Part shown: positions 15,630 through 21,174 of the stretch, piece by piece
How the letters are laid out: each line of letters begins with the position of its first letter
Position numbering within the stretch: position 1 is the first letter of the stretch
Assembly (NCBI GenBank): GCA_025352045.1
Contig: JANXUD010000072.1
Location: 1-64,000, forward strand
DNA length: 64,000 bases
Source: Gammaproteobacteria bacterium
GTDB taxonomy: Bacteria > Pseudomonadota > Gammaproteobacteria > Xanthomonadales > Xanthomonadaceae
Direction: 5' to 3'
The notes under the pieces: generated by a model
The model's database searches: none
Told to the model about the DNA's origin: nothing
Seen by the model: the letters and a program-made list of their open reading frames with translations, nothing else
Made by a program: the position numbers and the translations under genes

Positions 15630-16544
15630 CTAGCGCGCCTTGCCCGCGAAGGCCTCCGCAAGCCGCTGGTAGGCGTCGCGCTGGGCAGCGCTTTCCGGCT
15701 TCGGCGTACTGACTTCGAGCTCGACGATCTGGTCGCCCGCCGCCGGCTTGCCCGGCAGGCCACGACCGCGCAGGCGCAGCTTGCGCCCGCTGTCCGAGCC
15801 CTCCGGCACGCGCAGCTCCACGCGCCCGCCCAAGGTCGGCACGCTCAGCGTCGTGCCCAGCGCCGCCTCCCAGGGCGTGACCTGCGCGGTATAGAGGATG
15901 TTGCGTCCGTCCACTTCGAACTCGCCGTGCGGGCGATAGTCGATTTCCAGCAGCAGGTCGCCGCGATGCGCCGTCGGGCCCTGCCCCTGCCCGGCAAGGC
16001 GGATCACCTGGCCGGGACGGATGCCGACGGGAATCTTCACCTCGAGGGTGCGGCCGTCCACCGAAATCGCCTGGGCGCCGCCGGAATAGGCGATCTCCAG
16101 CGGGATGGCGAGCTTGGCGCGGGTGTCGCCCTGCGGCGCCTGGCGCGCGCGCGCGGCGCCCCGTCCTGCGCCGCCGAACAGCGATTCGAAGAAATCACTG
16201 AAGCCCTCGCCGCCGCCCTGGTCGAAGCGGAAGCCCTGGCCATTGCCGCCGCCGAAGCCACCGAAGCCGCCCTGCCCGCCAGCGGATCCGAAATCCGGGG
16301 GCGGGCGGAAATCCTCGCCCGGACGGTAGCCTTGCGCGCGCAACTGGTCGTAGGCGGCGCGCTTTTCCTTGTCGCGCAGCACCTCGTAGGCCTCGTTCAC
16401 CGACTTGAAGCGCTCCTCGGCGCCTTTTTCCTTGCTGACGTCGGGGTGGTACTTGCGGGCAAGCCGGCGGTAGGCGGTCTTCAGCTCCGCCTCGCCAGCG
16501 CCCGGCTCAACGCCCAACGCCTCGTAATAATCCTTGAACTGCAT
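15630..16544 (-). CDS. cbpA: DnaJ-class co-chaperone, CbpA-like
   Basis: J-domain [56 protein letters not shown] with HPD; Gly/Phe-rich linker; DnaJ C-terminal domain. Confidence 0.9.
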
Positions 16545-16557
16545 CTTTGGCTCCAGC

Positions 16558-16590
16558 GAAAAGGCCCGCGGAAGCGATCCCGCGGGCCTC
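16558..16590 (-). terminator. Hairpin terminator between hsp20 and cbpA (minus strand)
   Basis: Minus strand AGGCCCGCGG-gatcgctt-CCGCGGGCCTTTT. Confidence 0.6.
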
Positions 16591-16615
16591 ATTCTACGTC
16601 CGCCCGGCGTAACGC

Positions 16616-17065
16616 CTACTGCACGTTGATCCGGCGCGGGGTGGTTTCCGGGCGCTTGGGGATGGCTATCTCCAGCACGCCATGGCGACCGGTCGCGCTG
16701 ATGCCATCCGGGTTGGCACTCTCGGGCAGGGCGAAGCGGCGATAGAACACGCCGTGCGCGCGCTCGACGCGCGAATAGCGCTCGCCTTCGCTCTTTTCCT
16801 CGGCGCGGCGTTCGCCCCGGATGGAGAGCACGCCCCTGTCCATGTTGACCTCGATCGCCGCCGGGTCAACGCCCGGCAGGTCGGCCAGGATCAGGAAGCG
16901 GTCCTGCTCTTCCTTGATGTCCACGCGCGGAATCCACTGGCTGGTGACGACGCTGGATGCGTCGGCCTCGGGCTGGCTGGAAAAGAAGCGGTCGAAAACC
17001 TGCTTGATCTCGTCCTGCAGGGGGTGCTGGGCGGCGTGGTGCCACCCGATCTGGCGCTGTCGCAT
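16616..17065 (-). CDS. Hsp20/alpha-crystallin family small heat shock protein
   Basis: [44 protein letters not shown]...[33 protein letters not shown]. Confidence 0.93.
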
Positions 17066-17198
17066 GGTCTTGCTCCTGTGTCGTGGGCGCGGCACGTCGG
17101 CCGCGATGGCTGGAACATGCGTTCGGTTAGCTGGGATTCAAGGCTGCCCGCGCCAAATCCGTTTAGACTGCATTCCACTTCTTGAATGCGAGGCGGCA

Positions 17199-18274: not shown

Positions 18275-19081
18275 CTATTTGGGTGCGGTGGTCGCGACCG
18301 GCAGTTTCTGCGCCAGGTGCGTTGCCGCGGCCACCTTCGAGATCGGCGTCATCTGCAAGGCGGAATCGGCCATGTCCAGGCCCAGTCCCTGCCCCGCCGT
18401 GCGGGCGCGCAACAGTCGCGGGAAGTCCACGTCCACATACCCCATCGGCGCGCCGTCGGCGGAGAACGCCATGCCGGGCACGCCATCCACCAGCAGCAGG
18501 GTCTTGGGCGTGTGCGTCTCGCCGATCACGGACCCGATCCGGAACACCGGCACGCCGCCCCATTCATCGGAGGTGCGCAGCAGGGAGAAAAAGGTCATGC
18601 CGGGCTCAGCCACGACACCCTCGTCGAGGTTGACGAAGCTCAGCCCCGCCGGCGGCTTGCGCAGGCGCAACCAGGCCAGGCCGATCTGGGTGTCGCGGGT
18701 GACCAGGTCCGCGGGCAACCAGTCCTCGCTGCCCGCAAGGCGCACGCGGAACTCGCTGGACTTGGCCACGGGCGCCGCGCCCTGCCCGGCCGACGAGCCC
18801 ATCAACTGCTTGAAATCCATCGAGACGGCGCGGTCGGGCACCAGCAGCAGGCCATCGGCGCTGACCAGCAGGGCTTGGGTGCGGTCTTCGATCCGCTCTT
18901 CCTTGCCCGAGGTGGTCACCGACATCACGAACTTGACGGTCACCACCGCGTCGCCGTGCTTGGCGGTCAGCGACCGGTAGATCGGGCGGTAATCCTGCAC
19001 GCCCGATTGCGCCAGCGCAGCGGGCGCCGCGATCGCGCAGCACAATGCCAGGGAGATGAGCCAGGGGGCGGTGCGCTTCAT
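18275..19081 (-). CDS. Secreted trypsin-fold HtrA-like protein lacking catalytic residues (putative pseudoprotease)
   Basis: Signal peptide; alignable by eye to the neighbouring HtrA but with His, Asp and Ser positions substituted. ATGA overlap with the htrA-like gene. Confidence 0.65.
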   Translation of the reverse strand: MKRTAPWLISLALCCAIAAPAALAQSGVQDYRPIYRSLTAKHGDAVVTVKFVMSVTTSGKEERIEDRTQALLVSADGLLLVPDRAVSMDFKQLMGSSAGQGAAPVAKSSEFRVRLAGSEDWLPADLVTRDTQIGLAWLRLRKPPAGLSFVNLDEGVVAEPGMTFFSLLRTSDEWGGVPVFRIGSVIGETHTPKTLLLVDGVPGMAFSADGAPMGYVDVDFPRLLRARTAGQGLGLDMADSALQMTPISKVAAATHLAQKLPVATTAPK

Positions 19082-21174
19082 CGTGCGGACTCCGGTGCGT
19101 CGGCGTTGAGCCAGTAGCGTTCGAGGAACAGGATCTTGGTCTGGTTGCCGCGGATCACCGTCAGCGGGATCAGCCCGTCTTGGCGCGCCGCCAGGGCCTG
19201 TTCCAGTGCCCGCGACAGTTCGGTCGGGTCGTGCACTTCGGTGTCGCCCAGGCGGACGATCACGTCGGAGCGCCGCAGGTGCGACAGGCCGGCGGCGCCG
19301 CCGCTTTCCACGCCATCCACGAACACGCCTTGCGCGGTGCTGGGCAGGCGCAGGCCGACCCGGTCGTAGAAGCCCAGTTCGCGCAACTGCGCGCGCAGCC
19401 GGCCGATGGCCAGGGTGCGCAGGCCGGAGGTTTCGGTGGGCGACGGCGCGGCGGTGACATCGAACTGCACGGGCTTGCCGGCGCGCACGGCGCCGAACTT
19501 GCCCTTCGCGGACACGTCGAGGTCGTGCACGCGCTGGTCGAATTCCTCGGAAGAAACGTCATTGCTGGGCTTGAGCGCCTCGCCATTGAGCGAGACCAGC
19601 AGGTCGCCGACGTGCGCGCCGGCCGACCCCAGCGGGCTGCCTGGATAGATGCGCGCGATGCGGTAGCCGGCGCCCGGCAGCCCGACTTCCTTGGCCAGCG
19701 ATCCGGTGAACGGCTGCACTTCGACGCCGACCCAGCTCTTGGGCAGTTCGGGCAGCGGGTCGTGGCCCTGGTCGCCCTGCTGTGGCTTGAGCAGGCTCAG
19801 GCGCTGCTCGCCATCACTCTCCAGTTGCAGCACCAGCGGCTTGTCTTCGCTCGCGCCCGCTGCCGCGCCGAGCAGGTCGGTGAGCTTGGTCACCGGCTTG
19901 CCATTGATCGCGCTGATCACCATGCCCGCTTCGATTTCGGGACGGGCCACCGCAGCCGGGCCGCCCGGCTTGACGCCGGTGACGAGCACGCCGGAGCGCG
20001 CCTCCAGGTTGCGCCGCTTGCCCATCTCGGGCGTGAGCTCGGACGCGGAAATCCCGTAGGCGGCGAGCGCCAGCTCGTTGCCGCGTTCCACCCGCTGCGC
20101 CTGGGCGACCAGGGCGATGTCCTGCTGGCGCCCGCCGCGCTCGATGCGCAGCGCCACCTTCGAGTCGATCGGCAGTTCGGCGATGGCCTGCTGCACGCGC
20201 GGCACGTCGACCGGTTGCAGCGCGGTGATCTGTTGGCCATTGAGGCTGACGATGCGATCGCCGGCGCGCAGGCCCGCCTTTTCGGGCGGCGACCCGCGCT
20301 CGACCGAGTTGACCAGCACGCCTTCGGTGAACGGCGTGCCCTTGAGCGAGCGGATGCGGAAGCCCAGCGACACGCGGTCAACGCGGCCCTTGGCGATCAG
20401 GGTACTGACGATGCGCCCGGCCTCGGCGCCGGGGATGGCGAAGGCCAGGTCGCCGCCGACGATCATGCCGCGCGTGTTGACGCCGACGATGCGGCCGTTG
20501 AGGTCCACCAGCGGGCCGCCGGAATTGCCCGGCGCGATCGAGGCGTCGTGCTGGATCCAGGCGTAGTAGCGCCCGGTCGGCTCGTCCTCGCTGAGGGAAT
20601 CCTCGTATTCGGCTTCGTCATCGAACAGCGACACCAGCAGGCGGCGCGGGTTGTTGACCACGCCCATGCTCATGGAGTTGGACAGGCCCCAGGGCGCGCC
20701 CATGGCCAGCACCGTGTCGCCGGGCTTCAGGTCGAGCTCGGTGGCGAATTCGGCGTAGGCGAAGGTTTCAGGGTGCGGCGGCTGCACCTGCAGCACCGCC
20801 AGGTCGGACAGGGTGTCGGTGCCCACCAGCTTGGCGGGCAGCTCGCGGCCGTCGGCGAAAACGATGCGGAAGCTCTTGCCGTTCTGGGTGACGTGCGCAT
20901 TGGTGGCGATGTGCCCCTGGGCGCTGACCACGGTGCCGCTGCCGCTTGAAACGCTCAGCGTTGGTCCACCTTGGCGATAGTCCTGGCGCACGGTGAGGAT
21001 GCTGACCACCACCGGCAGGACATGGTCACGCGCCGCGGCGATGCGGCTGGCCTCGACGGGGGCCTGCGGCGCAACCGGATCGGCGAAGGCGGGCGAGGCG
21101 AACACGGCGAGCAACAGCGCGGCGAAGAGCGGCGCGACCAGCGCGCAGCGGAAACGAATCGAAAGGATCGGCAT
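19078..21174 (-). CDS. Periplasmic HtrA/DegP-type serine protease with multiple PDZ-like domains
   Basis: TNAHV, SDLAVL and GNSGGPL catalytic motifs intact; about four PDZ-like segments in 698 aa; signal peptide. Confidence 0.9.
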   Translation of the reverse strand: MPILSIRFRCALVAPLFAALLLAVFASPAFADPVAPQAPVEASRIAAARDHVLPVVVSILTVRQDYRQGGPTLSVSSGSGTVVSAQGHIATNAHVTQNGKSFRIVFADGRELPAKLVGTDTLSDLAVLQVQPPHPETFAYAEFATELDLKPGDTVLAMGAPWGLSNSMSMGVVNNPRRLLVSLFDDEAEYEDSLSEDEPTGRYYAWIQHDASIAPGNSGGPLVDLNGRIVGVNTRGMIVGGDLAFAIPGAEAGRIVSTLIAKGRVDRVSLGFRIRSLKGTPFTEGVLVNSVERGSPPEKAGLRAGDRIVSLNGQQITALQPVDVPRVQQAIAELPIDSKVALRIERGGRQQDIALVAQAQRVERGNELALAAYGISASELTPEMGKRRNLEARSGVLVTGVKPGGPAAVARPEIEAGMVISAINGKPVTKLTDLLGAAAGASEDKPLVLQLESDGEQRLSLLKPQQGDQGHDPLPELPKSWVGVEVQPFTGSLAKEVGLPGAGYRIARIYPGSPLGSAGAHVGDLLVSLNGEALKPSNDVSSEEFDQRVHDLDVSAKGKFGAVRAGKPVQFDVTAAPSPTETSGLRTLAIGRLRAQLRELGFYDRVGLRLPSTAQGVFVDGVESGGAAGLSHLRRSDVIVRLGDTEVHDPTELSRALEQALAARQDGLIPLTVIRGNQTKILFLERYWLNADAPESAR

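Follow-up and report, generated by a model that had tools for sequence, protein, structure and literature searches.

In the main, HtrA proteases have been described as homo-oligomers, with peptides or the enzyme's own PDZ domains acting as the switch. Among the described systems closest to the one considered here, MamO is needed, without catalysis of its own, for proteolysis by MamE; the activating part of MamO is its TauE domain rather than its pseudoprotease domain, and the protease domain binds a transition metal (PMC4794232). Plant Deg7 carries its domains on a single chain in the order PD-PDZ-PDZ-PDia-PDZ-PDZ, and the inactive domain of AtDeg7 is reported to participate in trimerization (PMC3473262). 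Here we describe a locus in the window (the whole 64,000-nucleotide stretch of DNA that was analysed) where an HtrA gene is directly followed by a gene for a predicted HtrA-like pseudoprotease, which we call the partner. We searched the literature on this group of bacteria for a pseudoprotease that partners an HtrA and found nothing.

The gene pair and its products

The window comes from a 3.0 Mb genome that groups with Arenimonas species. On the minus strand the gene order is mtnA and gyrA, then HtrA, then the partner. Both reading frames lie where the first-pass annotation had put them, and the ATGA overlap that it had described between the two genes is indeed present (positions 19081–19078). 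A GGAG sits about 8 bases 5' of the partner ATG, inside the 3' end of the HtrA gene. The features of the pair are as follows.

19078..21174, minus strand: gene for a predicted active HtrA/Do-type serine protease, 698 aa, with a Sec signal peptide (Pfam Trypsin_2, PDZ stretches, invariant triad)
18275..19081, minus strand: gene for the predicted HtrA-like pseudoprotease (partner), 268 aa, with a Sec signal peptide (AlphaFold2, Foldseek, profile comparison)
19078..19081, minus strand: ATGA shared by the stop codon of HtrA and the start codon of the partner (seen in the sequence, recurring in most relatives)
20557..20652, minus strand: enlarged, acidic L3 loop of the HtrA protease domain, 32 residues (175–206), before the IQHD motif

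Downstream of the pair, the window holds a CbpA/DnaJ-type gene and an Hsp20 gene (15630–17095, minus strand). Both are also found downstream at loci L068, L086, L088 and L089, and CbpA at L082, L084, L085 and L087. Since such genes recur in several relatives, the locus may be a protein-quality-control (stress) cluster next to gyrA. A search of the window genome matched at least one more HtrA-like frame, of 481 aa, on contig C88. The paired HtrA thus probably exists in addition to another HtrA system rather than being the only one of this genome.

The first gene is predicted from its sequence to encode a catalytically active protease. The protease domain covers approximately residues 42–262, with a triad of H94, D124 and S218 that is invariant in 22 of 22 homologues. 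The protein matches Pfam Trypsin_2 (4.1e-30) and has four PDZ stretches; the combination of triad and PDZ domains is that of S1C peptidases. An AlphaFold2 model likewise contains four PDZ-like repeats and matches DegP at 6e-28. Against the Do family model TIGR02037 the protein scores 317.9 bits, which is under the curated cut-off of 416.2.

The partner matched no family in Pfam, NCBIfam (including its MamO model) or PHROGs, and a sequence search of the PDB found nothing. Its AlphaFold2 model, built from 24 sequences (pLDDT 84.7, pTM 0.79), assigns it the trypsin-like double barrel of an HtrA protease domain, as the first-pass annotation had expected. The best 50 Foldseek matches of this model in the PDB all belong to the HtrA family, led by DegP (E 9.4e-10; TM up to 0.75 of the target). 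The earlier alignment of motifs by eye reflects real homology: in hhalign, the partner family aligns with the paired HtrA family at a probability of 96 and a score of 75.5, against at most 23.6 for 40 column shuffles and 17.0 for a reversed profile. When a partner HMM is searched against 369 class genomes and 399 phylum genomes, it also picks up frames of HtrA size (E 1e-4 to 1e-10); the matches in the phylum sample are weak and likewise lie in such frames. Genuine HtrA/DegP proteases account for the class matches that were inspected, and in the 369 class genomes the model finds only HtrA proteases besides two partner fragments in genome G328. As the first-pass annotation had noted, a PDZ domain is lacking: there was no Pfam match and no PDZ was found.

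The same annotation had held that His, Asp and Ser are all replaced, and the aligned positions of the window partner are R84, G134 and V201. Over the 35 members of the partner family, the His position is occupied by R, L, M, N or S, the Asp position by G (31 of 35) or D (the remaining 4, all in one family), and the Ser position by V, M, A, P, S and other residues. Any given member retains at most one triad residue, and neither an invariant His nor an invariant Ser occurs anywhere in the family. The GNSGG oxyanion loop is missing, the segment comprising L3 and the oxyanion loop aligns as approximately 30 residues shorter than in the paired HtrA, and an insert of approximately 20 residues follows the former His position. 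Thus the partner appears to have the fold of an HtrA/S1C peptidase with neither the triad nor the PDZ domain, and we predict that it is catalytically dead. In family f7, the partners at L045, L064, L065 and L067 retain the triad Asp next to an altered Ser loop (e.g., NGKGLPAF); these possibly represent an earlier stage of triad loss than the other families. At L057 and L058 the partner has a Ser at the nucleophile position (DGSPG), yet the His position is R and the Asp position is G.

Pairing, selection and origin

To describe the distribution of the pair we gathered 35 partner relatives from whole genomes, representing three families. All 35 lie directly behind a multi-PDZ HtrA in the same direction, most of them with the ATGA overlap and the rest separated by tens of bases at most. 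Among 300 genomes of the order, the partner occurs in 23, and an HtrA of the paired type occurs in the same 23. The paired type was scored by the C-terminal half of the protein, which gives E values of 5e-28 or better in the holders; the best match outside them in the order is 8e-13. With these classes so well apart, we can dismiss the possibility that the pairing statistic is an artefact of missed HtrA relatives. In the genus, both genes are present in the same 21 of 27 genomes and both absent from the same 6, and in two other families the genomes with the partner and those with this HtrA likewise coincide (4 of 39 and 8 of 10). Only one further genome with this HtrA type, from another order, turned up in the class sample, and the partner is there too. 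No genome searched for both contained an orphan. Hence the co-occurrence, which had been proposed as a check, holds without exception in the genomes where both genes were looked for, although it is weaker evidence than it would be for unlinked genes, because one deletion removes both neighbours. The pair is, however, also kept in family f7, where neither gyrA nor mtnA was found beside it. Together with its absence from the Pfam, NCBIfam and PHROGs models searched, these data define the partner as a new, undescribed and obligately paired protein family.

Several individual loci deserve mention. In G328, from another order of the class, the same pair is present with the partner split over contig ends (L191, L192). 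In G097, an additional HtrA frame that carries the QHD motif (contig C19, L174) probably represents the remaining half of the split paired gene of this genome, of which 431 aa lie there and 272 aa on C110. Frames of 703 and 719 aa that the HtrA query matched in two partnerless genomes of family f3 were considered as unpaired long HtrAs and rejected; they are ordinary DegP/MucD proteins with an open stretch upstream.

For the pairs compared, the dN/dS ratio of the partner is 0.10–0.38, similar to that of HtrA, with somewhat faster change than HtrA in some pairs. These codon changes indicate that the partner is under purifying selection and is not a decaying copy. In a phylogenetic tree, the partners form one clade and the paired HtrAs another, both with the same three-family split. 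The partner clade is not sister to the neighbouring HtrA, and both groups sit on long stems. The term "dead paralog" used in the first-pass annotation is therefore apt in the wide sense of an HtrA-derived protein, and fails in the narrow sense of a sister to the adjacent gene. The tree, in which long branches meet, does not assign the origin of the partner to any particular HtrA.

The L3 loop and a two-subunit reading

In HtrA proteases such as DegS and DegP, L3 is the loop that passes on activation signals. The L3 and LD loops of Deg1 have also been described (PMC3640471). Counted from the strand before L3 to the IQ.D motif, this loop has 30–32 residues and comes with WIQHD in 23 distinct HtrA sequences of the paired type, whereas in 35 other HtrAs from the collected loci it has 13–17 residues, mostly with IQTD. 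Residues 178–215 of the window HtrA, which overlap the enlarged loop, have a pLDDT below 50 in the single-chain AlphaFold2 model.

Because the two genes always occur together, the partner is probably a functional component of the active protease. It was earlier suggested to be a regulatory subunit, an adaptor or a mixed-oligomer partner. Our main reading, to which we give a probability of about 0.6, is that the two proteins form a two-subunit HtrA, with the dead subunit serving to regulate or scaffold the live one. MamO/MamE and the dead domain of Deg7 are precedents for such an arrangement. The first gene would provide an active periplasmic HtrA protease with four PDZ domains, and the second a dead HtrA protease domain, translated right behind HtrA and exported alongside it. 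The dead subunit would most likely bind to the protease core of the live HtrA by the kind of surfaces found in HtrA protease-domain trimers. Once bound, it would set the assembly or the active state of HtrA, probably via the enlarged L3 loop. We infer all three elements, i.e., the binding, the surface used and the contact with L3, the last of these because the long loop is found in paired HtrAs and absent from unpaired ones. Two points count against this reading: HtrA PDZ domains bind hydrophobic tails, and the C-terminal tail of the partner (...LPVATTAPK) is unlike such a tail; and MamO activates through its TauE domain, which has no equivalent in the partner. A more specific version of the two-subunit reading, which we put forward only tentatively, would combine live and dead protease domains in mixed cores. 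Control of HtrA by the obligate pseudoprotease would run through an L3 loop evolved for this contact, and the bacterial machine would match Deg7 in its parts while being encoded by two genes.

Alternatively, the partner could act by itself, for example by binding a metal or another ligand, and merely be made together with HtrA in one stress response. The metal bound by the MamO protease domain would fit such a function, as would the CbpA/DnaJ and Hsp20 genes downstream in several relatives, since these might make the entire locus a stress cluster. We consider it unlikely, given that the partner family has no conserved His for a metal site, that the partner was never found without this HtrA type, even in family f7 where gyrA and mtnA were not found beside the pair, and that the long L3 loop exists only in the paired HtrA.

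Pseudoenzymes often retain ligand binding, and the partner could therefore be a substrate receptor or adaptor that holds unfolded clients and passes them to HtrA with no direct effect on activity. The conserved blocks DWLPADLVTRD and LLRTSDEWGG with the invariant residues D130 and R169, the gene overlap and the strict pairing are all consistent with this role. The shortening of the oxyanion/L3 region by approximately 30 residues relative to the paired HtrA argues against a kept peptide-binding cleft, and we regard an adaptor as improbable.

That the partner might still be a peptidase, with an unusual triad or dyad, is very hard to reconcile with at most one triad residue per member, no invariant His or Ser in 35 sequences and the lost GNSGG loop, despite the aligned Asp kept in one family and the Ser at the nucleophile position of two members. 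Finally, the lost triad and the somewhat faster change in some pairs might hint at a functionless duplicate in decay, an idea made scarcely credible by an open reading frame kept at 35 loci in three families and by the purifying selection.

Comparison with known systems

The pseudoprotease always accompanies one HtrA type, in at least four bacterial families. The pair offers a simple soluble system, with two periplasmic proteins and no membrane domain, in which to ask how a live protease domain is steered by a dead one; MamO/MamE and Deg7 have left this question open.

The live subunit shares its fold and protease core with DegP, DegQ, DegS and MucD of the Do family (TIGR02037). Unlike these proteins, it has four PDZ domains, an approximately twofold longer L3 and a TIGR02037 score below the cut-off (317.9 against 416.2). 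As in Arabidopsis Deg5/Deg8, a PDZ-less protein of HtrA fold stands beside a PDZ-bearing HtrA in one compartment; Deg5 retains its triad, whereas the partner has none (PMC3640471).

The partner agrees with MamO in being an HtrA-derived domain with a broken triad, and like MamO with MamE it would work with an active HtrA encoded in the same cluster. Features particular to MamO are a membrane TauE domain, a partial triad (H, D and T for S) and metal binding. In contrast, the partner is a short secreted domain (268 aa in all) with no TauE domain and no conserved His. Counting both gene products, the pair resembles Deg7 in having one live and one dead protease domain and four PDZ domains. In Deg7 the dead domain lies in the middle of the chain, whereas here it is a separate protein and all four PDZ domains are on the live HtrA.
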